Shown: positions 7,442 through 46,833 of the stretch, one piece after another | Layout of the letters: the number at the start of each line of letters is the position of its first letter | Numbering within the stretch: position 1 is the first letter of the stretch | NCBI RefSeq assembly: GCF_000338295.1 | Contig: NZ_ANMO01000202.1 | Coordinates: 1 to 64,000, forward strand | Source: Rhodopirellula europaea 6C | GTDB lineage: Bacteria > Planctomycetota > Planctomycetia > Pirellulales > Pirellulaceae | DNA length: 64,000 nt | Direction: 5' to 3' | Made by a program: the position numbers and the translations under genes | Notes under the pieces: model-generated | What the model saw: only the letters and a program-made list of their open reading frames with translations | What the model was told of the DNA's origin: nothing | Databases searched by the model: none

Positions 7442-7515
7442 GGTGGGGCGGTCAGGTGGATGGAGGGACGGGAGGTGAGATTCAAGTGGAACAAACAGAG
7501 CGAGCAACGAGACGA

Positions 7516-8643: not shown

Positions 8644-8661
8644 GCCAAGGAAACGTTTGTG

Positions 8662-13219: not shown

Positions 13220-16200
13220 CTATCGGTTAACGTTTCCGCCATTCGCTGTGGTGGAACGGACCATACCAGGGAACCAATCTTCCATGGTCTGTGTAATCCC
13301 ACTGAGCGATTTTCTGCGGATCGTGGGAGCTTCGATTGGTCCGTCAACCTCGATTGTCCACAGCGTGTAGCGATTGTCTCGCAGCGGGTTGATGACTTTG
13401 CTGAACAAGTTCTGCGGACTCACTCGCGTGTTGAATGACATGTCGAGGTGTTCGCGACGACTCAGCGTGCCACCACCTTCGAGTGCCACCAGATCGCCCC
13501 AGAGCACCAAGCGGTTGAAGTTCAAGTCTTCACCAAAGATCGAAAATTCGGTCTCCCCATTCGTGAAGGCAACGTCTTCGGTGGCTTTGATGCGAAGCAA
13601 GTTCAACACCTGAACAAGGTATGGCAACTGGTACAAGTTAGCGCCGCTGACACTGCCGCGGCCGTTGCCTTTCAGCAGATCCAGATCACCCAAGCGTCCC
13701 TCCAAATGAGAGTCGCCATCGAAGCGTCCGGTGATGCCGGTGCGATGCTGACCGATTTCGGCGAGGCAAGTCGCGATTTGTGCGTTGGCCAAAGCGGCAT
13801 CGATTTCGAAGTCACCTGAAGAAAGCAGCACGCCACCGCTAAGACTGACCTTGCCTCCGAACAAAGCACCCACGATCGGCACACCACTGCCGTTTGGATC
13901 GGGGTTTGGAGAAGGCAGTCGTGCGTTTTCACCCAGGCGAAGTTGTTCGTTGGTGATCGAGAACGGGCCACGCAACGACGTGATCTGCAATCCATACGCA
14001 TGCATGGAATCCAAAGCGATGTTTCCGACCGCCTGCAGCACTTCTGCATCGCGGACGCCCTGCACTTGGATCTCGCCTCGTAACGAATGGACCGGGCCAA
14101 CGTCCGCGATTCGGTTGCCTTCCAGTTGAAGCAATAGGTCCCAATCGATCACGGGTGTTGATGTGTCATCGTTCGCCATCAGCAGATTGGTTTTACCGCG
14201 GAGGCTGATCGGACCACGCAGGTCGAGAGCTCGCATCGCACGGCCGACTTGTTCCGGCATCGCTGCGATCAATTCCTCGTCGGGAACCAAGCGACAGCCA
14301 CTGTGCAGATCCATCGCCAACAACCAACGACCTGATGGATGTTGAGTGCATGTTCCGTCTGCAACCATTCTCGAACCGTCATGTCGACCACGAAGGTTGC
14401 TAATACGGACTTCGTCGTCTCGGTACACGACACGACCACCGACGATGTCGATGCGGTAAGGGACCGCCACGGGACGAAGGCTGAGCGAGTCGGGGGTGAC
14501 TTGACCGGAATCGTTTTGATCGGCAACCAACGTCAAGTCCAGCGGATTGGTGCCGGACTGATGGATGTGGACATCCAATTGGTCCAGTGTTCCGCCTGGT
14601 GAGAGTGAGTCCCAAATATGTCGTGTTGATTCGGGCAGTGACACGCGGAGCGATTGGTCCATCGACAAATCCGCGATTTGAAAACGAAGGTTCAATTCCG
14701 AATCCGCATTGGTCGCTGTGGTTGGATTTGGAATCCGGTACAGGCCATTGCAATCGACCTTTGCCGAACCAGCGTTGTTGGCGGTGAAACCGATCATTCG
14801 CACCAGATCGTCTTTGATCTGTACTCGGCCTTCGACGTTGTAGAGAGGATAGGGGAACTTGTCGTAGCGAAGCGTTCCACCAGAGACCCGAAAATCAAAC
14901 TGACGGGATGAGTTTCCGTTGGCGTCAGTTTCCAGTGTTGCTGTGGCCCACTCGATCACGCCGCGTGGACGCAACGAACGAACAAACTGCTCAACCTTGG
15001 ATACCGAACGGGACGTGCTGGTTTCGATCAACTCACCTGTGGTCGCGGATACGCTGCCTTGGTCGCTCGATTGGGCTTCGCGAGGTGTCAGCGATGTGAT
15101 CAGGGCATCGTCGATCAGGACCGATCCTTCCGTTTGGATCGTGACTTGTTTGGTATGAACTTTGGGAGCGTCGGGATCGAGTCGAACTGGAACACGAAAG
15201 CCGCAATTGACTCGTTGTCCACCGGCGCGTCCGGTGAGTTGTTCGGCAGTGGCGAACCCGTTGTCGATTCGGATCGTGCCAACGAGTTGTTCGACCGGGT
15301 AGGGAAACTTGTCGAACTGCACATCGATTCCACGGATGTCGACTTCTGATTGCAAAGTCCATGCTTTGGATCGAAGTGGAGCAGGATTGGTCGCGTGGGC
15401 ACGCAGGTTCAATCGTCCGTGAGCTTGGAATTTCTGCCAAAGGTCATGCAGCTTTTCGGGCATTGCTTCCGCGAAGGGGCGATCAAGTGTCAGGCCTTCT
15501 CCTGTGAAGTGGAAGTCCGTCGGTCCAAGGTCAAAGCTGGTGCGAGATTGACGAACCAGGGCCGCGGTGCCGCGGAGCGTGCAATGGGCGTCGCCAAAAT
15601 TGGCTTGCGTTGGAAAGAGTTTGATTTGTTCAGGCGTGATTTGAATTCGTCCGCGAGCTTGGCGAATTTTGGATGGCAAGCGAGGGTCGTCTAAGTTGCC
15701 ATCGTGCACCACCAAGTCGAGTTCGAATTGGTCTGTCTCGTTTTGTTTGGTGTATTCGGCGGAGAGGTCACCATGCAAGCGAACGCGCGCTTTCGCCGGC
15801 AGCCATTTGGAGATTCGCGAACGGACTCTCGCGATGATCGCATCATCGATGTGGCAGTCCTTGATCGTCGTCTTCAGTCGCAGTTGTTCGTTGGTTCCTT
15901 CCAGCAACTTGTCGTACGCCAATTCGATTGGGCCGCTGAAGTTGCTGTCGCCGCGAGCGAACACCATTTTGCGTTCGCGAGATGTTCCTGCAATCAGTGC
16001 CGCACCGTCGTTTGTTGTCTCGGTTGAGATGGCGATGTCCGACCATCGAAGTTGGATCGGCTGCATTGCCGCCGAAGTGCTTCCCGGTTCAACGTTGCCG
16101 TCTGAGGATCCGCGAGAAGCGGCCGCTTCGAAGGTCACGTTTGTTACCACGCCATACAGATCGATCTGCGGGCAGGCCGGTCCCATTTGCGGTAACGGGT

Positions 16201-30160: not shown

Positions 30161-33100
30161 ATGAACTTCGACAATTCTTCCCGCCGTCCATCTGCTTCCA
30201 AACGCTCGTTCCAAGGTCAGGTTCGACGACGTTTGATGTCTTGGATCCAAGGAACGTCCGCTGCACCGTCTGGTGAACCAGTCCAGCGAGGGCGCTTGCA
30301 GTTGGAGTCATTGGAAAAACGTCAGATGATGGCTGGCGACGTGGATCTTTTCGCGACGGAAGGCTTCTTTGGTTCAGCTGGCGAATCTTCGGCGGCGGTG
30401 GAAAGTTCTTCGACCGATCGTGGAACGTCTGACCGTGCTGCGGAAGGCGAGCCGGGGCAGGACCTGGTGCAGTTCGCGAAAGATCTGGATGCGGCCGGCG
30501 TGACGTTTTATGGTGCCCACTGGTGCCCGGCTTGTACCCAGCAAAAACAATTATTCGATGATGGACGCGATGATCTTCCATTTGTCGAGGTCACGTTGCC
30601 TGATCGAACGCAGGATCCTCAGTTTTCGTCGTTGAATATCAGCGAGTATCCAACTTGGGTCTTCCCTGATGGAACTCGATTGACTGGAGTTCAATCGCTC
30701 CAAACCCTGAGCACGCGAAGCGGCGTTGCGATCCCAACTTCGGACAACGAAAATCCTTCGTTTGAAACGATCGATGCCCAAACCGTCGAACTTGGTTCGC
30801 CGCTGCACATTCCAATCGACGGTTACGACGCGGAAGGTGGTCCGCTGACCGTGACCGTGTCGGTGGCCAATCCGAACTTGGTGGAAGCCACTGTTCTGAG
30901 CGGAAATCGTTCGCTCCGTTTGGACATGGACGGCTTTGGCGACATGGTGTTCGAGTTGTTCGAGCAGCGCGCTGAGCGTCCGACCGAACGAGTTATCGAC
31001 TTGGCCAATAGCGGCTTTTACGACGGTCTGATTTTTCACAGAGTCGTCAATGGCTTCGTGATTCAAGGTGGTGACCCCACCGGCACCGGAACTGGCGGAT
31101 CAACTCTGGGTGACTTCGACGACGAGTTCCATCCCGATCTGCAGCACAACCGAACGGGCGTCCTGTCATTCGCGAAGTCGTCCGATGACACGAACGATTC
31201 GCAGTTCTTCATCACAGAAGTCGAAACGGACTTCCTCGACTTCAACCACTCTGTTTTTGGTCAGTTGGTGGAAGGAGAAGACGTGCGTGAAGCGATCAGC
31301 AACATGCAGGTCAACAACAGCACGTCGAACAAGCCGACCACAGACATCGTGATCAACAACGCGACGATCTTTGACGACACCGAGAACTCGGTGATCATGC
31401 TGAAAGGATTGGGCGGCACGGGTAGCACGACCGTGACGGTGACGATCACGGACTCGGACGGCAATTCGTTCGACCAGGTGGTTCCAGTGACCATCACGGA
31501 TCCTCCGTCCGATCGACGCAATGCTCAGCCCTACCTGGAAGACATCAACGTCCCAGCCTCGTCACCCAAAACGACCCCGGTTGAGCTGCAACTGGAAAGC
31601 TTTGACCTGGAAGGCGACGCGGTTCAGTACTTCGTCAGCGGTGGCGTGACGGGCGGTACCGCCACGGTCAATGCATCGACCGGTTTGTTGCAAGTGACGC
31701 CGGCCGCGAATGTTTCGGGGACGCAAACCGTTTCGCTGACCGTTGGAGTCGCTGCTGCATCCAATGCAGGGTCGAATTCGGACTTGCAAAGCCTGGTCTT
31801 TACGTTCACTGATAGCAATACTCAAGCTCCTGCCGCACCATCGTCGTTGGATCTGCGTTCCTCGTCTGACACGGGCAATAGCAGCGGCGACAATCTGACC
31901 AATGCAGCGTCGTTGACGTTTGATGTTTCCGGTGTCACGACGGGAGCAACGGTTCAAATCATCAACACAGCGGACAACACGGTTGTCGGTGTTGGAACGG
32001 CAACGGGCGGATCGATCGCGATCACAACCAGCAACCTGGCGGCGATTGGTGATGGCACCTACAGCTTGGCGGCTCGGCAAATCGTTGGCGGTGTCACCAG
32101 TGGCACATCGACGGCTTTGTCCGTGACATTGGATCGAACCGATCCTTCATTCACATTGCCTGCCAACTCCACCACGGGCAACGTTGGTGCTGCTTACCAA
32201 GCCAATTTGTCTAGTAGCGAAGAAGGCAGTGGTGCAACTTACAGCCTGACAGTTTTCCCCGCCGGAGCCACGATTGGCTCATCGACCGGGATCATCAATT
32301 GGACACCCACCGCGGCTCAATTGGGGGCGAACGACTTCACGGTCGAGATCAGCGATTTGGCTGGCAACACTTACACGGAATCGTTCTCCGTGACGGTTGC
32401 TGAAGAAGCCTTGGCCCGTCTGGAAGTGCGTCTGACGGACTTGGACGGCAACGTGATCGACTCGGTCGACGTCGGCCAGGAGTTCTTCTTGCAGTTGATT
32501 GGTGTCGACGCTCGGGACCTGAGCGAGCGTGGCGGGATTTACTCCGCGTACGCCGACATCGAATTTGATTCTTCGATCGCTGACTTTGTCCCCGGAACGT
32601 CAATCGAGTACGACAACGATTTCGACTTCCTGCCCCGCGGAACTTTGACCAGCGGTCTGTTCAATGAGATTGGTGCGGCGAGCAGCCGTTTCTCGCCAAC
32701 CAATTTGCAAGATTCGGTGATGGCAACGGTTCGCATGCGTGCGATCTCCGACGGTTCGTTGACCTTCACCACCAACCCAGCTGACGTCAGTGCAAACGAG
32801 ACATTGTTGTTCTTCAACAACGATCGTTTGCCCCCCGGTTCGGTTAACTATGGCAGCACCACGTTGACTGTTGGCGATGTCACCACGAACAATCCACCGG
32901 TTGGTGTCGATGACACATTCACGGTGATTTCGGGTTCGGGCCAGAACACGTTGGATGTCTTGGCCAATGAAGCGTCCACTGCCGATCCTGGTGAAACGCT
33001 GACGGTCACGGCCGTTGGTACGGCCAGCAACGGAGGCACGTTGAGCATCGCGTCCAACGGTTTGTCGATCAACTACACGCCACCAGCCGACTTCATCGGG

Positions 33101-34780
33101 GCAGATACATTTCAATACACCGTCAGCGATGGAACCAGCACTGATACGGTGCAAGTGACCGTCAACATCCAAAGCGATGACAATGCACCAACCGCGGTGA
33201 ATGATGCGTTCCCCGCATCAGGAACGATCTTGGAAGACTCCGACGCGGTAACCTATGACGTTCTCGCGAATGACACGACGGACGCGGACAACGAATCGTT
33301 CACGATCACCGGCGTTGGATCTGCGTCCAACGGAGGCCAGGTCTCGATCGTTAACAGCGGAACGGGAATCTCTTACAAGCCGGCTGCCAACTTCAACGGC
33401 ACCGAAACGGTGACCTACACCATCCGGGATACCGGAGGTGGGTTGTCGACGGCGACGGTGACCTTCACCGTCACTGCGGTGAACGATGCTCCTCTTAGCG
33501 AGAACGTGACGGTCGACACCGTTCGCGGTACGAGCAACGAAGCGGTGATGACGCGTGACGATCTTCCTGCGAACGTCGACGCTGGCGAAGTGTTGCAGTT
33601 TGTTAATCTCAGCACGCCGTCGGCGGGCGGGACCGTGACGGTTAGCTCAGACGGTTCGAGCATCCTGTACACGCCGCCGAGCAGCACTTTCACCGGCACC
33701 GACACATTCACTTACCAAGTGCAAGACGCGGGCGGATTGTCGAGCTCAACCGCTACCATCACGGTGAACATTGCGGACTATCTCGCTCGAGCCTTCAACT
33801 TCGAATTTGATTCGATCGGTGCTTTGTCGAGCAGCTTCTACGACGCGGCGATCTTGACTGGTACCAACGCACGTGGCGAATCGGTTTCGATTCCGTTGTC
33901 GGATTCTTCCGTTGTGGTTTCAGGCGGCACGATCAGTGTTCCGGACATGTTGCCCGGTTCTTACAAACTGACTATCCCAGCGGTTCCTTTCTTTGAAGGT
34001 GGCGAGGAAGCTCGCGAAATTGACATCGAAAGCGATCCCGATGAATCGGACGAAAACCTTTCGTTGAGCTTCGGCCGATTGTTGCCTCAGTACATCCGCG
34101 TGAATGATTGGTTCGGTTCCGCACCGGCTCGCCGAGTGGTCGCTGCGGTTTTGCCAGGCAGCAATGCTTTCTACATGCAGTCCAGCGACGCTGCGGACTC
34201 GCGTTTGAGTGACGTGGAATTGTCGCTCAATGCTGCCGGCACCAGCATCACCGTTAACGCCACGGAATCAACCACGGCTGACGGCGCAACCACAACGGCT
34301 CAGGTCAGTGGTACCGCTAGTCTGGACGACGGAAGTGCACTGGAAGTACGCGGACAAGTTGGCGACTTCCGCTTGTTGATTCTCAACTTCGATGAGACCG
34401 GGATCGAGCTGGAAACACCAGCCTCGAGCTCGACTGCCAGCACGGAATCATCCTCGACCCAAGCTGCTGGTGAACCACTTGCTTCTGCCGTGACGATGGC
34501 TGATGCCACGGTTCCGGTCAGCGAGCTGGGAACCTCTCGAATTCAGAGCAGCGTCGAGCCAACCGGTGAGCCAATCGAGGTCCTTTCAGGGGACTTTGAA
34601 AAGGTCGTGTCCGGGTCGAATGACGCCAGACAAATAGACGCAGCGATGCCAGAAGTCACTGGCAATTTGACCCGAATTTCGGACGCCGAAGACGTGGTTG
34701 CGAGCGGTGTAACGGGCCAGCCTCGATTGCTCGGGGAAGCTGTTGATGAGGTCTTGACAGGCGTTTCTGGGTCGAACTGA
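30161..34780 (+). CDS. giant surface protein: thioredoxin-like, cyclophilin, cohesin-like and cadherin-like domains
   Basis: A 1539-residue extracellular protein. After a basic N-terminus it has LESLEKRQMMAGD (48-60), the motif typical of exported planctomycete giants. A thioredoxin-like domain (about 103-190) carries FYGAHWCPACTQQK with the CPAC redox pair at 122-125 and the cis-Pro segment EYPTWVFPDG, similar to the thioredoxin part of VKOR fusions. A cyclophilin-type peptidyl-prolyl isomerase follows (about 250-405): FHRVVNGFVIQGGDPTGTG, SQFFIT. Then come Ig/Calx-like repeats (about 410-740), a cohesin-like domain (about 747-900, LEVRLTDLDGNVIDSVDVGQ) and three tandem cadherin-like repeats (about 909, 1005 and 1107 onward; LDVLANE, YTPPADFIGADTFQYTVSD). 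The C-terminal 130 residues are Ser/Thr/Glu-rich, without a dockerin. Two protein-folding domains on an adhesin-like chain is unusual. Confidence 0.88.
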   Translation: MNFDNSSRRPSASKRSFQGQVRRRLMSWIQGTSAAPSGEPVQRGRLQLESLEKRQMMAGDVDLFATEGFFGSAGESSAAVESSSTDRGTSDRAAEGEPGQDLVQFAKDLDAAGVTFYGAHWCPACTQQKQLFDDGRDDLPFVEVTLPDRTQDPQFSSLNISEYPTWVFPDGTRLTGVQSLQTLSTRSGVAIPTSDNENPSFETIDAQTVELGSPLHIPIDGYDAEGGPLTVTVSVANPNLVEATVLSGNRSLRLDMDGFGDMVFELFEQRAERPTERVIDLANSGFYDGLIFHRVVNGFVIQGGDPTGTGTGGSTLGDFDDEFHPDLQHNRTGVLSFAKSSDDTNDSQFFITEVETDFLDFNHSVFGQLVEGEDVREAISNMQVNNSTSNKPTTDIVINNATIFDDTENSVIMLKGLGGTGSTTVTVTITDSDGNSFDQVVPVTITDPPSDRRNAQPYLEDINVPASSPKTTPVELQLESFDLEGDAVQYFVSGGVTGGTATVNASTGLLQVTPAANVSGTQTVSLTVGVAAASNAGSNSDLQSLVFTFTDSNTQAPAAPSSLDLRSSSDTGNSSGDNLTNAASLTFDVSGVTTGATVQIINTADNTVVGVGTATGGSIAITTSNLAAIGDGTYSLAARQIVGGVTSGTSTALSVTLDRTDPSFTLPANSTTGNVGAAYQANLSSSEEGSGATYSLTVFPAGATIGSSTGIINWTPTAAQLGANDFTVEISDLAGNTYTESFSVTVAEEALARLEVRLTDLDGNVIDSVDVGQEFFLQLIGVDARDLSERGGIYSAYADIEFDSSIADFVPGTSIEYDNDFDFLPRGTLTSGLFNEIGAASSRFSPTNLQDSVMATVRMRAISDGSLTFTTNPADVSANETLLFFNNDRLPPGSVNYGSTTLTVGDVTTNNPPVGVDDTFTVISGSGQNTLDVLANEASTADPGETLTVTAVGTASNGGTLSIASNGLSINYTPPADFIGADTFQYTVSDGTSTDTVQVTVNIQSDDNAPTAVNDAFPASGTILEDSDAVTYDVLANDTTDADNESFTITGVGSASNGGQVSIVNSGTGISYKPAANFNGTETVTYTIRDTGGGLSTATVTFTVTAVNDAPLSENVTVDTVRGTSNEAVMTRDDLPANVDAGEVLQFVNLSTPSAGGTVTVSSDGSSILYTPPSSTFTGTDTFTYQVQDAGGLSSSTATITVNIADYLARAFNFEFDSIGALSSSFYDAAILTGTNARGESVSIPLSDSSVVVSGGTISVPDMLPGSYKLTIPAVPFFEGGEEAREIDIESDPDESDENLSLSFGRLLPQYIRVNDWFGSAPARRVVAAVLPGSNAFYMQSSDAADSRLSDVELSLNAAGTSITVNATESTTADGATTTAQVSGTASLDDGSALEVRGQVGDFRLLILNFDETGIELETPASSSTASTESSSTQAAGEPLASAVTMADATVPVSELGTSRIQSSVEPTGEPIEVLSGDFEKVVSGSNDARQIDAAMPEVTGNLTRISDAEDVVASGVTGQPRLLGEAVDEVLTGVSGSN

Positions 34781-36666: not shown

Positions 36667-37644
36667 TCACGCTCGCGGGTGAAAGTCCCGGTGCACGCGT
36701 TGCAGACGAGAGTGTTCGACGTGTGTGTAGATCTGGGTCGTCTGAATGCTGGCGTGTCCAAGCATCTCTTGGACCTGCCGAAGGTCAGCTCCGCCGGCCA
36801 GCAAGTGAGTTGCGAAACTGTGCCGCAAACTGTGTGGGCTGATCTCGTCAGAGATCCCTGCTCTCTTGGCATAGCGTTTTACGAGACGCCACAACTGAAT
36901 TCGGTCGAGTGCTTTACCGCCTCGCGATAGAAACAGTTCGTCGATCTGCCCCGGATTTCGATCGGCCAAAATGTGGCGGCTTTCTGCGAGGTAGAGCTGA
37001 ATCGCCTGGATCGCTCGGCCACCGATCGGGACCATCCGCTGCTTGTCGCCTTTGCCGTGGCAGCGAAGCGTCTTCTCATCGAGTGTCAGGTCGCGAACGC
37101 GGAGGGTGCAAACTTCCGAAGCTCGGCAGCCGGTGGCGTAGAGCACTTCCAGCAGGGCACGATCTCGTTGCCAGAACGAATCGGACTTTTTGACTGCGGA
37201 AAGAAAGGCCTCGACCTCGTTGGGCGATAGGACGCCCGGCATTCGTTGCCAAGCCTTCTGGGTTGCCAATAGTTCGGCCGGATTGTCGACCGTGATGCCT
37301 TCGAGCTGCAGGTATTTGAAGAACGTCCGGATCGCGACAATTGCTCGCGAGATGGACGCCGGGGCCAGGCCTTCGCCGTGAAGTGATGCGACGAAATCAG
37401 ACAATTCAGTGATTGTCAGGTCCGCGGGGCGGCGTCCGTCCATCCAGGTGACGAAGCGCTTCATGTCGCGTCCGTAGGCGGCAACGGTGTTGTCGGCGAG
37501 ATGACATTCGCGTTTCAGATAAACCAAAAATTCATCACAAACCGCTTGACCGGCCGAAGGAGCCACGGATTCTGTCTGTCCGGACTTCAATTGCTGCAGT
37601 TTTGTGAGTCGTTTAGCCACTCTGGTGTGCTCGACGGCGTTCAA
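36667..37644 (-). CDS. xerC: tyrosine recombinase of the XerC/XerD type
   Basis: A 325-residue site-specific recombinase likely resolving chromosome dimers at dif together with a partner. It has the N-terminal SAM-like core-binding domain (about 33-115) and the catalytic domain with Arg174 (TGCRASEV), His271 and Arg274 (HSLRHSFATHLL), His297 (MLGHASIQTT) and Tyr306 (IYTHVEH), all intact. XerC versus XerD cannot be decided here. Length is slightly above the usual 300 because of about 30 extra N-terminal residues; the start is TTG 37644 or GTG 37620. No flanking attachment sites, integrase-linked genes or composition change suggests a mobile element, so it is a housekeeping gene. Confidence 0.92.
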   Translation of the reverse strand: MNAVEHTRVAKRLTKLQQLKSGQTESVAPSAGQAVCDEFLVYLKRECHLADNTVAAYGRDMKRFVTWMDGRRPADLTITELSDFVASLHGEGLAPASISRAIVAIRTFFKYLQLEGITVDNPAELLATQKAWQRMPGVLSPNEVEAFLSAVKKSDSFWQRDRALLEVLYATGCRASEVCTLRVRDLTLDEKTLRCHGKGDKQRMVPIGGRAIQAIQLYLAESRHILADRNPGQIDELFLSRGGKALDRIQLWRLVKRYAKRAGISDEISPHSLRHSFATHLLAGGADLRQVQEMLGHASIQTTQIYTHVEHSRLQRVHRDFHPRA

Positions 37645-37666
37645 GGACGCACAACGTATGTGCTCT

Positions 37667-37687
37667 TCATTGGATCGATTCCAATGA
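37667..37687. promoter_or_regulatory. perfect inverted repeat in the xerC-galE divergent region
   Basis: TCATTGGA and TCCAATGA, 8-base perfect arms with a 5-base spacer, lie in the 114-base space between the divergent xerC and galE genes. The geometry fits an operator for a dimeric regulator, but no regulator is identified. Confidence 0.45.
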
Positions 37688-37758
37688 GTTATCGTCTTGG
37701 ACGCTCGTCGCCGCCAATGTCAATTCTTCTCGAACCATCTCCTTCTCAAGATTCTTCC

Positions 37759-38745
37759 ATGAAAGTTTTCGTCGTCGGTGGTGCCGGATACATCGGATCA
37801 CACGCGGTCGCCTTGTTGCTTGATGCCGGTCACGAAGTGGTCGTGTTCGACAATCTGTCTCGCGGGCATGCTAAATCGGTTCCGGAGGGTTTGCTGGTCG
37901 AGGGCGACCTGAACGATCAGGCGAAACTGACATCTTTGTTGAAAGAGCACTCGATCGATGCGGTGATGCACTTCGCCGCCTTTGCGGAAGTCGGTGAGTC
38001 CGTTCGAGACCCCGCGATCTACTACCAAAACAATGTTGTCGCGACTTTGTCGTTGCTGGAAGCGATGCGTGCGGCGGACGTCAAGAAGATTGTTTTCAGC
38101 AGCACCACCGCGACGTACGGCCAACCGGATACCGTGCCAATTCCCGAGACCACTCCACAGAATCCGATCAATCCCTACGGATTCTCTAAGTTGGTCATCG
38201 AGAAGGCGTTGGCGGATTACGCTCATGCATACGGTTTCGCTTACGCGGCACTGCGATACTTCAATGCAGCCGGTGCTCGTCCCGATGGAACGATTGGCGA
38301 GCATCACGATCCTGAGTCGCATCTGATCCCAATCGTGTTGCAGGTCGCGTTGGGGCAGCGTGAATCGATCTCGATCTTCGGCGACGATTACCCGACGCCG
38401 GACGGAACTTGCATTCGTGATTACATTCACGTCGACGATTTAGGAGACGCTCACTTGCGAGCCCTCGATCGACTGAAACCGGGAGAAGGCATCGAAGTCA
38501 ATCTTGGCACCGGTAGAGGAACCAGCGTCCGCGAGATTGTCGACGCGTGCCGGACTGTGACTGGACATCCCATCCCTGAAGTCATGGGCCAGCGACGCCC
38601 TGGCGATCCTGCTGAGTTGATTGCTGATGCGACGTTGGCGGGAGAAGTCCTGGGGTGGAAGCCTCGATACACGGACATCCAAGACATCGTGAAGACGGCT
38701 TGGAACTGGCATCAAACGCACCCCCAGGGTTACGACACGGTTTGA
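37759..38745 (+). CDS. galE: UDP-glucose 4-epimerase
   Basis: A 328-residue extended SDR that interconverts UDP-glucose and UDP-galactose for envelope polysaccharide synthesis. The N-terminus MKVFVVGGAGYIGSH carries the NAD-binding GxxGxxG, the active-site pair is YGFSK (Tyr-x3-Lys) preceded by a catalytic Ser in SSTTATYG, and GDDYPTPDGTCIRDYIHV is the GalE family block. Length is normal. The ATG at 37759 matches the family start; an upstream in-frame extension to 37501 has no Rossmann homology and overlaps xerC, so it is excluded. Confidence 0.96.
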   Translation: MKVFVVGGAGYIGSHAVALLLDAGHEVVVFDNLSRGHAKSVPEGLLVEGDLNDQAKLTSLLKEHSIDAVMHFAAFAEVGESVRDPAIYYQNNVVATLSLLEAMRAADVKKIVFSSTTATYGQPDTVPIPETTPQNPINPYGFSKLVIEKALADYAHAYGFAYAALRYFNAAGARPDGTIGEHHDPESHLIPIVLQVALGQRESISIFGDDYPTPDGTCIRDYIHVDDLGDAHLRALDRLKPGEGIEVNLGTGRGTSVREIVDACRTVTGHPIPEVMGQRRPGDPAELIADATLAGEVLGWKPRYTDIQDIVKTAWNWHQTHPQGYDTV

Positions 38746-38956: not shown

Positions 38957-41152
38957 ATGTTTCCATTGCGACGTTCCACAAAAGACTCGTCGGTGGATTG
39001 GCCGGCGTTGCTGTCTTTGTTGGAAGACGATGATCGACGGGCAGCGGTTTCGCGTATTGCGCCGAGTGAAGGACGCGAGAGCTTTCTGACGGCGTTGCGG
39101 CGGATTGAAGCCGCACAATCTCAGGCCACCTTGGCGGCGGGGCGACGGCTTCACACCGCATCCAAACTGATTGATCGACCCACGATCGCTGTTTCAGGAA
39201 TGCTTAACAGCGGCAAGACGAGTCTGGTCAGTTCGTTTCTATCGGAAGCTGGCCAACGCCGAACGCTGCGGGGAACGAGCAATCGGCACGGGACCCATCG
39301 TTTTGTTTTGTGGTTGCCACAGAGTTGGCGATCCGATGTCGAGCTTTGGAGTCTGCTGATCACACGGATTGGTGACTCGCTGGGCAACGCTCCCGAGGAA
39401 CTGTCGCTTGATCCGGAGATCGCGGCCGAACAATACAACAATCGGGACGGTGATGCGTCGTTGCTGTCCGTGCCTTTGTTGGGCACCGATCCCGGGCTCG
39501 ACGAAGTTGGTGTCGGTTTGCTGGATTGTCCTGACATCGTTTCGGACGAAGAGTTCGGACTGGGATCTCCTGAACAACGTCGCGAATTGTTGGGGCGCGC
39601 GGCGACGTTGTGTTCCGCGTTCTTGATCGTGACCGGCGCTGAATCATCGCGCGACACGACGCTGGCGGATTTGCTTCGCATCGCATCCGACTTGATGCCC
39701 GGTGTGCCGCGAATGTTGGCGGTCAACAAGGTGCGTCCGCGACAAACACCGGACCAAGTTCACGAAACGTTTGCACCGTTGGTTCAGAAGTACGGTGTCG
39801 GAACGCTCTACGCCGCTTACGATTTTGACGTTCCTTCGAGTCGTCCTTTCATCCCAGTGTTTGGCGATCAGCACCCGCAACGCGATGCGATCTCCGCGTC
39901 AGAATCTGATCTGCAAGGAGAAGACGATCCTGATCCCTTGCCGGTGTTCTTTTCCGTCAGTGAAGATCCCGATAGCAATCCACCCGCAGCGATCGATGAG
40001 GATCGATTGTTGCAGGCGTTGCCGTCCAAGCTCGATCGCGGCGTTCTGTTTTCGCAACTGCATCAAGCGCTTCGCATTAACTTAGAAGATGCGGTTTGGA
40101 ACCAAGGCTTGGAGTCGATTCGGCGGGATTCAGATCAGTCGTTTGAAAAAACGCGTCAGTGCCAACAGGTGTTGTTGGACTCGGCGTTGGAATACTTCGC
40201 TCATCGTAAGATTGGCGGTGAAGTGATCGAGCTGCGTTTGCATCAAAGCGAACGAATCATTCGCCAGCTCAGCGAATCGTTCGCGGCCACCGCACCTTGG
40301 TATGCTCGCTGGGGAGTACGCCTGAATGCGACGCTTCGGCGTGTCGTCGGGGGAGCGGGGGATTTCATTCGCAATCTGACGCCGACGGCTGTGTCTCGTC
40401 GCGCTGCTGATGACATCAAAGGACGATTCCGAAGCGGCGAATATGGTGGGCTGATCGAGCCAACCGGTTTGATCAACGAGATTGAACGTCATGGTGGAAC
40501 GACGGTTTTGTCACATCTTGCCGCGGCTTCGGACGGCGGTTCAGCGTCGGATGACGGTGTCTCTGCGTTTCGTGAACCGGTCGAGCGAGCGGTCTTGCGG
40601 TTTGAACAAGACGATTTCACGACGTTGGACCCGCGACGTTTGGATACCGCGGTTCGGCAGATGTGGTCGGAAGTTCCCATGCACCGAAAAATCGCGACGG
40701 GACTGACTCCACTTGCGGCTCTGTTTGCGACCTTTGGTGCGGTGCTGATGATCCCGGTTGATCTAGGTGCCAATGCGATCCTGGCCGCATCGATTCCAGA
40801 GATGCTGGCGGCCGGCGGTCTGACAATCATGTCGACGATGTGGGCTGCCAATCGGGGCACACAAGACGTCAGCCAACAAGCCGCACGTCAGCAACTTGCC
40901 GACTTCCTCGCCGTGTTGTGTGATGAGTTCGGTGTGGCTCGACCAGATCCGCCGATGGACGTGCGGGTTGGCAACGCTGACGTCACCTTACCGCCGTCGC
41001 GAATTGCAAGTGGTGAACCTCCTGAAAGAATGGTGTCGCTGTATCGGCTTCGGGATGAGTTCATTGCTGAGCTGAAGCGATTGTTGCCTCGGCCAAACGC
41101 AGCGAACAAACGCTCCACTGGCTCGCCCGCTGAATCAGGAGTCACGCGATGA
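38957..41152 (+). CDS. dynamin-like P-loop GTPase family membrane protein (first of a pair)
   Basis: A 731-residue protein with a P-loop GMLNSGKTSL (Walker A at 81-88), a G3-like LLDCPDIVSD (190-193), and a G4-like AVNKVRP (257-260) where Asp expected after NKx is Arg. Between these are long helical stretches (about 390-570) and a hydrophobic pair (about 580-635, LAALFATFGAVLMIPVDLG and MLAAGGLTIMSTMWA), followed by a soluble helical end. This is the plan of dynamin/YfjP-like bacterial GTPases that couple nucleotide hydrolysis to membranes. It heads a four-gene unit: its stop overlaps the ATG of the second P-loop protein by four bases (ATGA), strong coupling. GTP specificity is uncertain because of the altered G4. 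Confidence 0.78.
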   Translation: MFPLRRSTKDSSVDWPALLSLLEDDDRRAAVSRIAPSEGRESFLTALRRIEAAQSQATLAAGRRLHTASKLIDRPTIAVSGMLNSGKTSLVSSFLSEAGQRRTLRGTSNRHGTHRFVLWLPQSWRSDVELWSLLITRIGDSLGNAPEELSLDPEIAAEQYNNRDGDASLLSVPLLGTDPGLDEVGVGLLDCPDIVSDEEFGLGSPEQRRELLGRAATLCSAFLIVTGAESSRDTTLADLLRIASDLMPGVPRMLAVNKVRPRQTPDQVHETFAPLVQKYGVGTLYAAYDFDVPSSRPFIPVFGDQHPQRDAISASESDLQGEDDPDPLPVFFSVSEDPDSNPPAAIDEDRLLQALPSKLDRGVLFSQLHQALRINLEDAVWNQGLESIRRDSDQSFEKTRQCQQVLLDSALEYFAHRKIGGEVIELRLHQSERIIRQLSESFAATAPWYARWGVRLNATLRRVVGGAGDFIRNLTPTAVSRRAADDIKGRFRSGEYGGLIEPTGLINEIERHGGTTVLSHLAAASDGGSASDDGVSAFREPVERAVLRFEQDDFTTLDPRRLDTAVRQMWSEVPMHRKIATGLTPLAALFATFGAVLMIPVDLGANAILAASIPEMLAAGGLTIMSTMWAANRGTQDVSQQAARQQLADFLAVLCDEFGVARPDPPMDVRVGNADVTLPPSRIASGEPPERMVSLYRLRDEFIAELKRLLPRPNAANKRSTGSPAESGVTR

Positions 41153-42966
41153 ACGCAATTGTGATGGATGACTCGGGCGATCGTTTCTTGCAACGTGTTC
41201 ATCGTGCGGCGGACCGGGTGCTGGGCAACAGCCAAACCGGGCGAGAGATTGGCGAGCTATGCCGCGATCATGCGGAAGCTCGCGAAATGATCTTGACCGA
41301 TCGAGCATCCAATTCGGTTGTCGTTGCAGTCGTGGGAGCAACCGGGCAAGGCAAGTCTTGGTTGGTTCGCCAAATGATTCGAGGCGGTCCGGTGGACGCC
41401 ATTCGAAGCGGCAACTCGCTTGACGAGGCGACTGAAAAACTGACTTGGATCGGACCAAAGCCTCCCGCTGATTTGGATGCTCGTCACGAACGTTTTCTGG
41501 CATGCGACGCGGGCAAAATGCGATCGATCGGGTCACCTTATTTGCTGGTCGACGCTCCGGGGGCAACCGATGATCGACGCGCGATCGCGGGAGTCGCCGA
41601 GCGAGCGTTGTCGACCGCATCGGTATTGGTGATGGTCATTCGTCGCGATCAATTGCGCAGTCAGCGTGTATCAGGATTGGCGGCCGCCTCCGAAGGCACT
41701 GTCGTCATTCCCGTCGTGAACATGGCCGACGTCAATGATGATTCGTTGGATGCCGACGTGGAGGCTTTGGTCGCACGTTTGCGATCGACGGCACCACAAA
41801 GCCAGATCGCTCCCGCGGTGATCGTCAGCGATTTTGAAATTGACGAGCGTGGTGAAGACGAGATCGGTATTCGACTGGCTGAAACTTTGGGACGTCGAAT
41901 TGAAGAAGCCATTTGTGAATCGGGCGGAGGTGACCAGCGGCGGAGCACTCGGCTGTCAGCGTTGGACGCACGATTCTCAGCAGCGGTAGCCTCAGTCTTG
42001 CAGACTCAGTTGCCGGAATTGACCAATGCCGTCGATCGATTGAATGCGGAAGCAACGCGTTTGCCATCTGAGGTGGCGGGAACGTTGCTCGGCGGAACAA
42101 CACCGCTGCGAGCCGCGATTCGCAGCCGGCTTCGCCTTTCGCTGATGGCCGACACTGCCGCGATTTGGTTTCCTTATCGAACACTGCTGTCCTTGTTGAA
42201 TTTGACTCACGGTGCATGGGATCGTGTGTTGTTGTCATTGTCGGGATCACTGCCTTCGCTGATTGGCGCTGTCTACGCGGGGGCTCGAAATGTGAGTGAT
42301 CAACGAGCCGCTGACATGGACTTGCGAACCGGATTGCGACAACGAACTGCGGCCTCGGTGGCGGATCGGTTGGGGCCGATGGCAAGGCGTTTTCGAGCCG
42401 AGTTGAACAAGCTTCGTCACGGAACGATCGAAACGGAGATCGAGTCTTCGCCCGATGCACCTGTCGCGTCGTTGGCGGGTATCGAGACGTTGCAAGAGTC
42501 ATCGCAGAAGTCATTCGATACCGCGATCAGCCAAGGTTCCGCGACGACTTGGTTCGCCAATGTTGCGGGGCTTGCTGGAACGCTGCTGTTTTGGCTGTTG
42601 ATGACCGGGCCGCTGGTGGCACTGTACCGGGGCTACTTCGACGCCAGTTATTCGACGATGCGAGATGTGTTGCAAGCGGAAGGAGTGGCGGGTGATCTGG
42701 GCAAGTTTCCTCGGCCGGACGTGTCGATGATGTTGACCAGCTTGCTCTTGTCCGTTTTGCCGGTGGCCATCTTTTCGATGTTGGTGCTATCGTGGGTGCA
42801 AGCGAAGGGGCGAGTTGATCGCATTGAGAATCGGTTGCGAGAAGAACACGAGCAATTGATTCAGCGATTGCAGCGAGATGGTGTGCTGCGTTTGGCATGG
42901 AGCGATCCGTTGCTCGCCGATGCGGAGTTCTTGTTGTCGGTTGGTCGAGCGGTGGATGGAGAATGA
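41149..42966 (+). CDS. second P-loop GTPase-like membrane protein
   Basis: A 605-residue protein with a P-loop GATGQGKSW (63-70), a G3 DAPG (135-138) and a candidate G4 VNMADVND (191-194). It is not a copy of its neighbour but has the same overall plan: N-terminal nucleotide domain, long helical middle (about 270-450), and two C-terminal membrane segments (about 465-490 and 525-550; LAGTLLFWLLMTGPLVALY, LLLSVLPVAIFSMLVLSW) ending in a charged coiled coil (RIENRLREEHEQLIQRL). The two proteins may act as a heteromeric dynamin-like pair. It overlaps the first P-loop gene and the MotA/TolQ/ExbB-family gene by four bases each (ATGA), so stoichiometry is probably set by coupled translation. Function unknown. 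Confidence 0.75.
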   Translation: MNAIVMDDSGDRFLQRVHRAADRVLGNSQTGREIGELCRDHAEAREMILTDRASNSVVVAVVGATGQGKSWLVRQMIRGGPVDAIRSGNSLDEATEKLTWIGPKPPADLDARHERFLACDAGKMRSIGSPYLLVDAPGATDDRRAIAGVAERALSTASVLVMVIRRDQLRSQRVSGLAAASEGTVVIPVVNMADVNDDSLDADVEALVARLRSTAPQSQIAPAVIVSDFEIDERGEDEIGIRLAETLGRRIEEAICESGGGDQRRSTRLSALDARFSAAVASVLQTQLPELTNAVDRLNAEATRLPSEVAGTLLGGTTPLRAAIRSRLRLSLMADTAAIWFPYRTLLSLLNLTHGAWDRVLLSLSGSLPSLIGAVYAGARNVSDQRAADMDLRTGLRQRTAASVADRLGPMARRFRAELNKLRHGTIETEIESSPDAPVASLAGIETLQESSQKSFDTAISQGSATTWFANVAGLAGTLLFWLLMTGPLVALYRGYFDASYSTMRDVLQAEGVAGDLGKFPRPDVSMMLTSLLLSVLPVAIFSMLVLSWVQAKGRVDRIENRLREEHEQLIQRLQRDGVLRLAWSDPLLADAEFLLSVGRAVDGE

Positions 42967-43796
42967 TGATTGCAACCATGCTGCAAGACCTGGCGAGCAA
43001 CATGCTATGGACGCAAATGCTTTCGCAGACAGAAGTACCAGCCGGAAAGCCGGAGTCGATCTGGTCGATCGTGACCAGCGGTGGGATCCCCGGTTTGATG
43101 ATCCTGTTTGTTCTGTTGTCGTTTAGTGTCGCGGCCGTCTACTTGGTGGTGGACCAATCTTTGGCCTTGCGCCGTCAGGATGTGGTTCCTGAGAAACTGA
43201 GTGAAGATGTGGCGGCTGCGTTGCAGTCTTCTCGTGTCACGGAAGCTGAGACGTTGCTGCGTCAGAAGCCCAGCGTATTGGCGGGGATCATCGCGGTTGG
43301 ATTGAATCATCGTGAGTACGGATGGCCGGAAGTTGAAAAGTCGGTCGAAGATGCATTGGTTGACCAATCCTCTCGAATGCTTCGGCGGATCGATTACTTG
43401 GCGATGATCGCGAATTTGGCACCGATGGTCGGGTTGCTCGGAACCGTGACCGGAATGATTTTCGCTTTTCGTCAGGTCGCGGCCACACGCGGAGCCGCCG
43501 GTGCCGGGGATCTCGCGGAGGGTATCTATCAAGCGTTGGTCACGACGGTCGGTGGATTGCTGGTCGCGATTCCCGCTCTCGCCGCATCCGGTGTTTTGCG
43601 AAACCGAGTGGACGCGTTGTTGTCAGACGTCACAATGCACGCGGATCGAGCTTTAGCTCCTCTTCGCCGAAGAGCCGCCGCAACGTCTCGATTGGTTTCG
43701 GCGAGTACGCCCGGCGGTGGACGAATCGTTGCTGTGCCGCCGGCTCAAATGCCAGGCCGTAAAGCACCGCGTCCCGAACAAGATGGAACCCGATGA
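42963..43796 (+). CDS. MotA/TolQ/ExbB proton channel family protein
   Basis: A 277-residue inner membrane protein of the family whose pentamers use ion flow to drive a partner. It shows three hydrophobic segments: about 45-65 (GGIPGLMILFVLLSFSVAAV), about 150-175 with the family signature LAPMVGLLGTVTGMIFAF, and about 195-220 (LVTTVGGLLVAIPALAASGV), plus a cytoplasmic helical part between. The C-terminal 60 residues are basic and proline-rich. The ATG at 42963 overlaps the stop of the second GTPase gene; a longer frame to 42897 is not supported. Its usual partner ExbD/TolR/MotB is not seen nearby, so the energy transducer may be the adjoining GTPase pair or the small exported protein that follows. 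Confidence 0.9.
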   Translation: MMIATMLQDLASNMLWTQMLSQTEVPAGKPESIWSIVTSGGIPGLMILFVLLSFSVAAVYLVVDQSLALRRQDVVPEKLSEDVAAALQSSRVTEAETLLRQKPSVLAGIIAVGLNHREYGWPEVEKSVEDALVDQSSRMLRRIDYLAMIANLAPMVGLLGTVTGMIFAFRQVAATRGAAGAGDLAEGIYQALVTTVGGLLVAIPALAASGVLRNRVDALLSDVTMHADRALAPLRRRAAATSRLVSASTPGGGRIVAVPPAQMPGRKAPRPEQDGTR

Positions 43797-44416
43797 CACT
43801 CCCAACGGATGGACCCATGGATCACTCTGCGAAGAAAAGTCGGTGGTTTGGTGGCCGGATGACTCCCGCCGTGATGTTGATGTCGATTGCCACGGCGGCA
43901 ATCGCTCAGCCGCCAACGGACGATTGGAAAGAAGCTGAGTTGCCGACGGTGAAGACGCCCAGCGGTGCACCTCCCGACAAAGCGGCAGAAAAGATTCAGC
44001 AAGCACTTGATGGTGATCCGCTCAATTCAACCGGTGATGGCATGTTGGACGACGTGCTGAGCGTCATCAAGAGACGTGGCAGCGTGCTGGATGGATCCGT
44101 CTTGGATTCTGAAATCGATCCTCTCGGCGACGTCGCTGGCGAGAATTCAAACGGTCTAGAATCGGGCAAATCTGCCTCCAAACGATCGTCCGGGCCAACC
44201 GAGACCTTCCGTTTGGCTGAACAATTGTTGGCGACCGCACGAAGATTGGAGAAGGCGAGTCAGGTTTCGAAAGCAAATCGCGCCCCGCGAATCGTTAGCG
44301 GCGATGATCTTGCGAAACCTCGCGCGGACATGCTTCCGGTCGAGACGCTTGTTTATCAGATGCGGCTGCGTGCGGTTCTACTGATGCAGAGTGGCCTGAA
44401 CTCCTCCAGAGAGTAA
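43793..44416 (+). CDS. small exported protein closing the GTPase/ExbB unit
   Basis: A 207-residue protein with a basic N-terminus, a hydrophobic segment (about 24-38, TPAVMLMSIATAAIA) that is a signal peptide or short anchor, and an acidic, mostly disordered-looking mature part with Gly/Ser/Asp stretches and a helical end (FRLAEQLLATARRLEKASQV, QMRLRAVLLMQSG). It does not resemble ExbD or TolR. The ATG overlaps the ExbB-like stop by four bases (ATGA), so it is the fourth member of a translationally coupled set. Probably periplasmic; function unknown. Confidence 0.7.
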   Translation: MTLPTDGPMDHSAKKSRWFGGRMTPAVMLMSIATAAIAQPPTDDWKEAELPTVKTPSGAPPDKAAEKIQQALDGDPLNSTGDGMLDDVLSVIKRRGSVLDGSVLDSEIDPLGDVAGENSNGLESGKSASKRSSGPTETFRLAEQLLATARRLEKASQVSKANRAPRIVSGDDLAKPRADMLPVETLVYQMRLRAVLLMQSGLNSSRE

Positions 44417-44496: not shown

Positions 44497-46833
44497 ATGC
44501 TTCTCGCCCTTCGAAATCAACTCAAGCGACCGTTGACGCTGGTCTTCGTCTCTCTGGTCGTGTTGATCACGGGCGTCGTTGCAGCGGACTATTTCACCGG
44601 TCTGCCGAAATCCGCGGTTGCTACTTATGTCGGGCGAGATGCCTGCGTCGAATGCCATCAAACCGAATCGTTGGCATTCAAAGGTTCTCACCATGATTTG
44701 GCCATGGATGTGGCAACCGACGAAAGCGTGATCGGCGATTTCAACGATGTCGTCTTCGAGCATGACGGATTGCAGAACCGGCTGTTTCGAGACGGTGACC
44801 GGTTCATGGTTCATACCGAGGGCCCCGATGGCAAGATGCAAGACTTCGAGGTGAAGTACGTCTTCGGAGTGGATCCACTGCAGCAATACATGGTGGAGTT
44901 CGATCGCGATCCCGAATCGAGCGATGATGAGATCGGACGATTACAAGTCTTGAGGATCAGTTGGGATACCCATCGCAAAGAATGGTTCTATCTGCGTCCG
45001 CCGGATGTGCCTGAGAAGCTTGAGCCGAACGATCCACTGCACTGGACCGGTGTTGCTCAGCGTTGGCAAACCATGTGCGCAGATTGTCACTCGACCAATT
45101 TGAAGACAAACCACGATGTTGAAACACTGACCTATCACACAACGTTTTCAGAGATCGACGTCAGTTGCGAAGCGTGCCACGGCCCCGCGAGTTTGCACAT
45201 CGAGATGGCCCGTGGGAACTCGCTCTTCTGGGATCGGCACCACGGTTACGGGCTGGCTCAGTTGAAAGGCGAAGACGCCACCGGACAATTGGAAGCATGC
45301 GCGCCGTGTCACAGTCGCAGAAGCCTGATGGATGCGGATTACCAAGCGGGCGATCCGTTCTGCAGCCACTTCAACTTGGAACTGCTTCGCGGCGATACCT
45401 ATCACGACGACGGACAAATCAAAGACGAAGTCTACGTGTATGGTTCGTTTGTGCAGAGCAAGATGTTTCACAAAGGCATCCGCTGCACCGACTGTCACGA
45501 TCCGCATTCGCTGGAACTGAAGCATCCAGGCAACGAAACGTGCACGTCTTGCCACCAGCATGCCGCAGGAAAGTACGACGTTCCATCGCACCATCACCAC
45601 GCGGTTGGTTCCGAGGGTGCGAAGTGCGTCAATTGCCACATGCCCCACACGACATACATGGAAGTTGATCCACGCCGCGATCACAGCTTGCGTGTGCCGC
45701 GACCGGATTTGTCGGTTTCGATTGGAACTCCGAATGCATGTAGCAGTTGCCATGTGAAAGATCAGCTCGAGAACATCTCGGCAGACAAGCGTGAGTCGCT
45801 GGACTTGTACCAAGATTGGTTGTTGGCAGCTTCGGAAGGCGACGAAGAGGTTGCGGAGGCGATTTCGAAAACCGACCAATGGTGCGATGAAGCATGTGAT
45901 CGATGGTACGGCGACGACCGGCAAACACCGGCTCACTACGGCGAAATTTTGCACGGCTTGCGAAGTGGTGATTCAGGCTCGATCGCGAAAGCACTTCGAT
46001 ACGTGATGGAGCCGCCGGAGATAGCTCCTGTATTGGCTCGTGCCACCACGCTCGACGAGTTGCTGCAAAGCGGCCGAGGACGTGAGTCAATTTCTGCGGC
46101 AAAAGCAGTGCTCAAAGATTCGAATGAACATCCAATCCTTCGTGCGACTGCGGCACGCGTGATGGGCGCCAGCGGACCGTCGGACGCGGTCAAAACGTTG
46201 CTGCCGTTGTTAACGGACCCGTCCCGTTTGGTTCGCAGTGAAGCGACGAAGGCATTGGTTTCGTCGGGCGGCTATCAGACTCTTTCTGGTACGCGACAAA
46301 AGCAAGCCGACCTGGCGATCGATGCGATCGAAGACGAATTGATGTTGGCCTCTGACCGTGCCGGCGCTCACATGGCGTGGGCGTCACTTAGCGAGCAACG
46401 CGGCGATTATCTGGAAGCTGCAGAAGCCTACCAGAATGCAATCCGGGTCCAGCCGAGTATGTCTGGGCCTCGGACCAATTATGCGTCGATGCTGGATCAA
46501 TTGGTCTCTGCCGCGGCTCAGTCTCGCGAAGCACAGTCAGCGATTGTTCAGTTGTTCGGCGGCAGTGGGGCTCTGAACGAATTGATGATTCAAGCTTCCG
46601 AGAAAGCGGCTCAGCTTCGACGCGATGAATTACCGTTGTTGGGACGCGATGCGAAGTTGGCGTCCAAAAACGCCGACGTTCAATACCGGTATGGATTGGC
46701 GTTGTATTTGTCCGGTGATTTGCCTGCTGCGGAAAAGCAATTACAACGGGCGGCAGAGCTCGCTCCCGACGTTGAGATTTTCTCCACCGCATTGCAATTG
46801 TTGCGTGAGCGGATCAATCAATCGGAAAAGTAG
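44497..46833 (+). CDS. eight-heme c-type cytochrome with HEAT/TPR-like tail
   Basis: A 778-residue exported protein. An N-terminal membrane segment (about 12-30) is followed by eight CxxCH motifs with first cysteines near 50, 194, 224, 268, 330, 349, 377 and 415. After the heme part, residues about 500-590 contain HEAT-like helical repeats (ILRATAARVMGASGPSDAV, LVRSEATKALV) and 610-770 contain TPR-like repeats (AHMAWASLSEQRGDYLEAAEAYQ is one, quoted in part). Segments CEACHGPASLH, KGIRCTDCHDPHSL and CVNCHMPHTTYME resemble nitrite reductase/hydroxylamine oxidoreductase-like multiheme proteins, but no specific reaction can be assigned. Its layout of one heme, a gap of about 140 residues, then clustered hemes mirrors the seven-heme protein at 3.1 kb. 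Transcribed behind the GTPase unit with an 80-base gap. Confidence 0.88.
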   Translation: MLLALRNQLKRPLTLVFVSLVVLITGVVAADYFTGLPKSAVATYVGRDACVECHQTESLAFKGSHHDLAMDVATDESVIGDFNDVVFEHDGLQNRLFRDGDRFMVHTEGPDGKMQDFEVKYVFGVDPLQQYMVEFDRDPESSDDEIGRLQVLRISWDTHRKEWFYLRPPDVPEKLEPNDPLHWTGVAQRWQTMCADCHSTNLKTNHDVETLTYHTTFSEIDVSCEACHGPASLHIEMARGNSLFWDRHHGYGLAQLKGEDATGQLEACAPCHSRRSLMDADYQAGDPFCSHFNLELLRGDTYHDDGQIKDEVYVYGSFVQSKMFHKGIRCTDCHDPHSLELKHPGNETCTSCHQHAAGKYDVPSHHHHAVGSEGAKCVNCHMPHTTYMEVDPRRDHSLRVPRPDLSVSIGTPNACSSCHVKDQLENISADKRESLDLYQDWLLAASEGDEEVAEAISKTDQWCDEACDRWYGDDRQTPAHYGEILHGLRSGDSGSIAKALRYVMEPPEIAPVLARATTLDELLQSGRGRESISAAKAVLKDSNEHPILRATAARVMGASGPSDAVKTLLPLLTDPSRLVRSEATKALVSSGGYQTLSGTRQKQADLAIDAIEDELMLASDRAGAHMAWASLSEQRGDYLEAAEAYQNAIRVQPSMSGPRTNYASMLDQLVSAAAQSREAQSAIVQLFGGSGALNELMIQASEKAAQLRRDELPLLGRDAKLASKNADVQYRYGLALYLSGDLPAAEKQLQRAAELAPDVEIFSTALQLLRERINQSEK

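Follow-up and report, generated by a model that had tools for sequence, protein, structure and literature searches.

Do four genes that overlap one another end to start encode a single device? The question is raised by positions 38957-44416 of a 64,000-nucleotide stretch of Rhodopirellula europaea 6C (contig NZ_ANMO01000202.1, positions 1 to 64,000 of the forward strand; hereafter the window), where genes for two non-identical P-loop proteins (A and B) are followed by one for a MotA/TolQ/ExbB-family channel (C) and one for a small exported protein (D). An earlier note, drawn up from the sequence alone, had held that the four almost certainly work as one complex. The computational analysis described here favours a divided answer: A and B are likely a divergent, heteromeric pair of dynamin-like proteins (DLPs), behind which the ExbB of a separate, unlinked ExbB/ExbD system is probably co-expressed, and it is unlikely that all four genes make up one ancient device.

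All four genes lie on the forward strand. Gene A (38957-41152) encodes a first dynamin-like protein of 731 residues with a G domain, a long helical part and a hydrophobic hairpin, and gene B (41149-42966) a second one of 605 residues with a G domain, a helical trunk and two predicted C-terminal membrane helices. Gene C (42963-43796) encodes a 277-residue TolQ/ExbB-type channel subunit, the orthologue of an ExbB that adjoins ExbD genes in relatives, and gene D (43793-44416) a probably exported protein of 207 residues. The three junctions, each a 4-base ATGA overlap on the same strand (A/B at 41149-41152, B/C at 42963-42966 and C/D at 43793-43796), are present in the sequence just as the earlier note had read them; the mechanically called open reading frame (ORF) of C begins further upstream, at 42897, and 42963 is the start that produces the overlap.

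Across the loci of relatives, 4-base overlaps occur at 30/72 A-B, 26/43 B-C and 14/17 C-D junctions, counts that rest on mechanical ORF starts and include six places fetched and counted twice; with these duplicates removed by hand, the figures become 24/66, 23/38 and 11/13. Spacings between -20 and +30 bases, with the same six places doubled, are found at 67/72 A-B, 35/43 B-C and 16/17 C-D junctions. Wider B-C gaps of 45-444 bases occur in seven Stieleria/Roseiconus-type loci (L065-L068, L071, L086 and L110), and the 755-base spacing in L076 comes from a B reading frame broken into two. The closest searched relative (G004) of this Rhodopirellula-group genome has a B that is 99% identical. The recurrence of close junctions in relatives argues that the arrangement of the row is more than chance.

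Gene C and its proposed ExbD partners

The assignment of C to the MotA/TolQ/ExbB family, made in the earlier note, is borne out by Pfam (1.5e-25) and by PDB chains of TolQ (1.5e-10, residues 46-241) and ExbB (5.4e-8). Its MotA_ExbB domain (43317-43631) carries GTV..G and the TT/AT transmembrane threonines that mark the ExbB/TolQ stator family. The genome has nine MotA_ExbB matches and eight ExbD matches, and none of these eight is an ExbD/TolR gene beside C. Two ExbD genes on contig C97 have no neighbouring ExbB, and we propose them as the partners of C. Besides the two consecutive ExbD genes, the C97 locus (L166, 2847-5892) holds a gene for a 702-residue exported-looking protein with weak TPR matches.

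Using the first C97 ExbD as query, the best-matching ExbD loci (about 3.4 kb each) were taken from relatives, with a first set of 30 loci from 60 genomes; the orthology of these ExbDs was assumed, at identities down to about 40%. In every examined genome with C beside B, the best C97-type ExbD locus contains no ExbB (26/26, as 15/15 and 11/11 in two sets). The second-best ExbD loci of five such genomes carry paralogous ExbBs that reach at most 109 bits against the C profile (L227-L229, L231 and L232), on a scale where orthologues score at least 235 bits and other ExbBs at most 150. Among the first-set genomes in which C is not beside B, a C-family ExbB adjoins ExbD in 14/15 (the exception being G050), and B was not found in 13 of these 15. 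In the second set the corresponding count is 4/13, with G035 as a further case. In five of the other nine second-set genomes, the C orthologue follows the gene for an exported protein of about 340-410 residues, here called X: X and C lie on a different contig from ExbD in G454, G475, G476 and G477, and both loci reach contig edges in G478, so that adjacency cannot be told there. The C orthologue stands alone in G460. No C orthologue was found in G450 (assembled to 5.2 Mb, its completeness unknown) or in G480 (Verrucomicrobiota), both with A and B, their best C-profile matches of 9.5e-34 and 2.6e-22 not being counted as such; G481 was left out of this search. X is unrelated to D: a profile of X had no match among the ORFs of the window, D included.

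In a tree of 90 C sequences, the 39 that stand beside B (L043 assigned by hand) require one label change, or 1-2 over bootstraps. Support for the node uniting them is weak (33/3), and the nodes that enclose it together with ExbD-linked sequences have supports of 89/87, 100/92 and 100/92. Further families of the order, ones that yielded no B, also have ExbD-linked C orthologues (G041, G042, G057 and G059). This nesting among ExbD-linked ExbBs, including those of families without a detected B, indicates that C was part of an ExbB/ExbD system before it arrived behind B, and the ExbD loci devoid of ExbB in all 26 examined genomes with C beside B indicate that it moved there, in one or two events. 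In the scenario that we favour, C would serve as TolQ/ExbB-type stator in a separate, proton-driven ExbB/ExbD system, and its gene would have left the ExbD operon in the ancestor of Rhodopirellula, Rubripirellula and Stieleria and settled behind B. To judge from the overlaps, expression and translation of the gene are now probably coupled to those of A and B, and its product most likely continues to work with the C97 ExbD pair.

Gene D would be a lineage-limited exported add-on. Its N-terminal segment looks signal-like when read by eye, and the fetched loci gave relatives from the Rhodopirellula group and from strain K23_9 and no others, no genome-wide search for D having been made. Directly downstream of D, the window encodes a multihaem cytochrome c-like protein with C-terminal repeats (44497-46833, forward strand); many loci of the Rhodopirellula group keep this gene behind D, and a ManC-like gene often comes next.

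Gene C as a neighbour of B

Several observations weigh against so clean a separation of C from the pair. C is the next gene after B in 28/29 loci of its group (drawn by hand) whose contig continues past B in the contig scan for B, the exception being L070 from G450, with L069 cut at the contig end. It stands behind B even where A lies elsewhere (L034, L043, L052, L054 and L073). In a separate, Pirellula-type lineage, locus L082 has X and C as a block 2.8 kb upstream of B, and locus L080 has X, but not C, 0.7 kb downstream of it. L080 and L082 are 2 of the 44 loci in which C is not directly behind B, and as they share their other neighbours, they may represent a single event. The MotA_ExbB matches of the window's genome include two weak ones, on contigs C90 and C140, and the C97 ExbDs are putative partners of C. 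The proximity of C and B is accordingly a hint of common regulation or function and not proof of it. In one Pirellula metagenome-assembled genome, a gene of the ExbB family, though not an orthologue, is found 0.8 kb upstream of A (L095, 3982-4875), which we take as chance because there are about nine ExbB-family genes per genome.

The constancy of C behind B within its group, the presence of C, or of its companion X, close to B in another lineage, and the tight A-B-C-D junctions in the Rhodopirellula group would all be expected if A, B, C (and D) were one proton-motive-force-linked machine for membrane remodelling or transport, with the ExbB ring physically coupled to the pair. We nevertheless consider such a machine unlikely. 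Relatives that gave no B match still have C orthologues adjoining ExbD; in the B scan, C does not immediately follow B at 44 of 72 loci, although some of these contigs end near B; G450 and G480 keep A and B with no C orthologue found; and D is very restricted among the fetched loci. The claim that all four genes almost certainly form one complex is therefore not supported by the comparison, and for the accompanying idea of a proton-motive-force-linked machine, to which we give a low probability, no direct support was found. A related reading, in which the dynamin-like heteropair of the Rhodopirellula-Rubripirellula-Stieleria lineage captured a proton-driven ExbB/ExbD motor, with the C ring docking on membrane-anchored B and ExbD supplied from the old locus, is likewise improbable. 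If it were true, proton flow would be coupled to membrane bending or to trans-envelope uptake, and a dynamin system would be powered or gated by an ExbB-type motor.

Genes A and B

What, then, are the two proteins in front of C? AlphaFold2 models, built from alignments of 61 B and 48 A family members, were compared with the PDB by Foldseek. For B (mean predicted local distance difference test score, pLDDT, 86.2), ranks 1-44 are all dynamin-superfamily proteins as judged by their titles, ahead of an eIF5B complex at rank 45; the best matches are BDLP (8e-9; 2j68, 2j69) and the Campylobacter jejuni (Cj) DLP pair (1.1e-6; 5owv_C), and Fzo1, IniA, SynDLP, OPA1, mitofusins, EHD and Mx are among the others. 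For A (mean pLDDT 81.8), judged in the same way, dynamin-superfamily proteins occupy ranks 1-25 ahead of an eIF5B complex at rank 26, led by IniA (1.6e-6; 6j72, 6j73) and including dynamin, SynDLP, Fzo1, LeoA, EHD4 and the Cj-DLPs (5oxf_A 3.7e-4, 5owv_A 6.2e-4). The G domains of A and B are also mutually related (hhalign E 1.1e-5, probability 82). The predicted models support the label "dynamin-like" that the earlier note had used for both proteins, at the level of the superfamily and without assignment to Pfam Dynamin_N.

The P-loop is conserved in both families. The G1 pattern GxxxxGK[ST] is present in 48/48 A and 61/61 B sequences; in A the P-loop (GMLNSGKTS, residues 81-89; 39197-39223) has G81, G86 and K87 invariant in 48/48, and in B (residues 63-70; 41335-41358) the glycine and lysine are invariant in 61/61. 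A putative G2 threonine, so assigned by us, is T113 in 48/48 A sequences and T95 in 56/61 B sequences (S in 4, A in 1). The G3 motif DxPG (residues 135-138) is found in 61/61 B sequences. A further, highly conserved motif of B, FPYRT..LTHGAWDR (residues 341-359; 42169-42225), lies outside the G domain. The divergent B of G033 (locus L041), which is not part of the 61-member alignment, has lost its P-loop, and the A of the same genome keeps it; there the A-B pair is duplicated in tandem (7306-9030 and 14161-15885), with B lacking both P-loop and G3, and from its sequence this B is possibly a pseudo-GTPase half.

By hydropathy, B has two membrane segments close to its C-terminus, which the model also predicts as helices (residues about 470-490, 42556-42618, and about 530-550, 42736-42798), and A has a shorter hydrophobic hairpin (residues 583-625; 40703-40831), a possible membrane-binding tip with low pLDDT in the model. 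The earlier note had given C-terminal membrane segments to both proteins.

Other features sit less comfortably with a dynamin assignment. Solved DLPs give low template modelling scores (TM-scores; about 0.2-0.3 when normalised to the query length), with the G domain as the main match; hinged proteins may give such values, and the dynamin claim is therefore kept at superfamily level. The A and B of the window have no Pfam Dynamin_N (PF00350) match at E 1, and this model matches only 3/48 A and 3/61 B sequences, weakly (best 0.0027 and 0.00096, respectively). A has DxPD (DCPD) in place of the G3 motif DxPG, with D193 in 48/48, and the G4 motif [TN]KxD is non-canonical in both families: the region reads N257 in 48/48 A sequences, followed mostly by K or R and with no D at 260, and NMAD in the B of the window, with N191 in 28/61 and D194 in 4/61 across the family. 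Given this G4, guanosine triphosphate (GTP) is a candidate nucleotide for A and B and not an established one. No family was found above cut-off for A, B or D in Pfam, NCBIfam and PADLOC scans, the best Pfam match of B being a sub-threshold MMR_HSR1 (0.0016), and searching the PDB by sequence gave nothing informative for either A or B. DUF3482, DUF2868 and YcjX-type identities were considered and dropped, being absent among the matches of the family scans.

That sequence profiles match the P-loops of Der, EngA and HflX ahead of any dynamin, together with the weak MMR_HSR1 match and the non-canonical G4, could mean that A and B are some other membrane-anchored P-loop nucleoside triphosphatase (Era/Der/HflX-like, or an ATPase), with only the G-domain core in common with dynamins. 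Whole-model searches, which put dynamin-superfamily proteins first for both, argue against this, as does the order of N-terminal helices, G domain, long helices and hydrophobic segments, which fits a dynamin-like protein; we regard this alternative as improbable as well.

The distribution of A and B supplies the other half of the argument. Among 199 Pirellulaceae genomes searched for both, B was found in 91 and A in 92; 90 have both and 106 have neither. B alone occurs in G624 (86% complete, partial match) and A alone in G635 (85% complete, a 300-residue fragment), and in G517 a marginal match to A of P-loop length (3.5e-4) was counted as chance. The two genes are adjacent in 69 of the 90 two-gene genomes and apart in 21 (on one contig in five of these); that both are kept even when apart indicates a bond independent of adjacency, that is, an obligate pair. 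A partly overlapping check of 17 genomes with A not beside B found A elsewhere in 16, the exception being a 2.5-Mb genome. These counts are tempered by the relatedness of the genomes, which makes them non-independent: B occurs in 17/68 and A in 18/68 genera. A and B correlate in a mirror-tree comparison (r 0.95 over 45 loci), a value not used as evidence here because common ancestry alone yields such figures.

The 72 loci of the B scan divide into 67 from planctomycetes and five from Verrucomicrobiota, and A is beside B in four of the five, the fifth contig being 3.5 kb long. A and B are also side by side in G401 (L044), from another planctomycete family. A phylum-wide search gave matches in at least 5 of 392 genomes (a lower bound, three candidates being scored per genome); two of these (G052 and G100) span only 55-62 positions around the P-loop, and at least 3/392 are left when P-loop-length matches are discounted, our own genome included. 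In a sample of Verrucomicrobiota, the phylum of L111, with at most three candidates scored per genome, the only match among 387 was the centre genome itself; the contig scan gave the further loci L112-L114 and L116. Dynamin-superfamily-like models, conserved P-loops, near-perfect co-occurrence and usual adjacency together lead us to regard A and B as a DLP pair, in agreement with the earlier note's view that the two P-loop proteins belong together. By the refuting test that the earlier note had set, A and B are kept together in other genomes and C and D are not.

As a pair of DLPs, A and B would assemble on the inner surface of the cytoplasmic membrane, where two C-terminal helices would anchor B and A would insert its hydrophobic hairpin. 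Nucleotide-driven pairing of the G domains could then tether, curve or stabilise the membrane, in the manner of the DLP1/DLP2 tetramer of Campylobacter in vitro. Since planctomycetes bud without FtsZ by a mechanism given as unknown in PMC4164004, dynamin-like proteins are natural candidates for that machinery, but a distribution as patchy as that of A and B speaks against a core division factor and makes this role very unlikely.

The remaining neighbours of the pair vary. Directly upstream of A, 12/52 loci have a gene for a sensor Ser/Thr kinase (Pkinase at 3.9e-48, dCache below threshold), and it also adjoins A in L037 and in 4 of the 14 loci listed (from 15 regions fetched) in which A is apart from B. 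Examples come from several lineages (L071 3516-5795, L037 3717-6263, L135-L137 and L140). It was considered as a fifth part and left out: it is not beside A in the window, and identity does not single out an orthologue there, relatives of the kinase's sensor part elsewhere in the genome being 34-35% identical and the A-adjoining kinase of G023 also 35%. Other neighbours of A and B, read by eye as MoxR-type, obg, mnmE and coaX, differ between lineages. In G018 a small two-gene cassette that looks by eye like a RelE/ParE-type toxin-antitoxin pair lies just upstream of B (L038, 7967-8559). Elsewhere in the window, 30161-34780 (forward strand) encodes a 1539-residue exported-looking protein in which thioredoxin-like, cyclophilin-like and repeated Ig/cadherin-like parts were read by eye. 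A mechanical GalE ORF at 37501-38745 (forward strand) overlaps a tyrosine-recombinase-like ORF at 36667-37644 (reverse strand), both named by eye; the GalE core appears to begin downstream of the mechanical ORF start.

Comparison with known systems

Planctomycete membranes are unusually folded, and A-B, a two-gene family with defined motifs that goes unrecognised by Pfam, is a candidate for shaping them. Its two members, an obligate pair kept by just under half of the Pirellulaceae sampled, are predicted to work together. The relocation of C names a specific ExbD pair, on C97, as its expected partner, and suggests that a tight operon, even one with three 4-base overlaps, can unite parts of different machines. 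No described system combining these parts, and no paper joining Planctomycetes, ExbD and dynamin, was found in the titles and abstract openings searched.

Taken singly, the parts do have counterparts. C resembles by sequence the TolQ and ExbB of the Tol and Ton systems, but has no adjoining ExbD/TolR gene, and the glutamate of the TolQ "AEAL" motif is Q in C; the position is likewise not E in six other aligned MotA/ExbB paralogues of the genome. Similarity to ZorA of Zorya is weak and at the MotA/ExbB level (0.012); the PADLOC scan found no other Zorya component among A, B and D, its sole other match being a weak one of the B P-loop to HerA (0.055).

By fold, B is closest to Nostoc BDLP and A to Mycobacterium IniA, but neither is among the sequence matches of A or B, which form an obligate two-gene pair in planctomycetes. 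The nearest parallel is the DLP1/DLP2 pair of C. jejuni (PDB 5owv, 5oxf; PMC6104087). That paper describes bacterial DLPs as usually paired in operons, and the Campylobacter pair, with heteromeric assembly, stimulated hydrolysis and membrane tethering or tubulation, would be the model for the mechanism of A and B. Like A and B, it is encoded by two adjacent non-identical dynamin-like genes, with a first protein of similar size (732 residues in 5owv_A versus 731 in A) and hydrophobic tip regions in both cases. The FPYRT..GAWDR motif and the two C-terminal helices of B are placed like the trunk tip of Cj-DLP2 (residues 348-401 and 509-542 in PMC6104087), a likeness of position only. The two pairs differ in that they share no significant sequence match (best 0.18, for A), in the non-canonical G4 of A and B, in their gene neighbours, and in the two predicted membrane helices of B, since the Campylobacter tetramer is described there as cytosolic. 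Paired bacterial DLPs are thus already known, and what the Rhodopirellula locus adds is a divergent variant of such a pair together with a lineage-specific capture of an ExbB gene.

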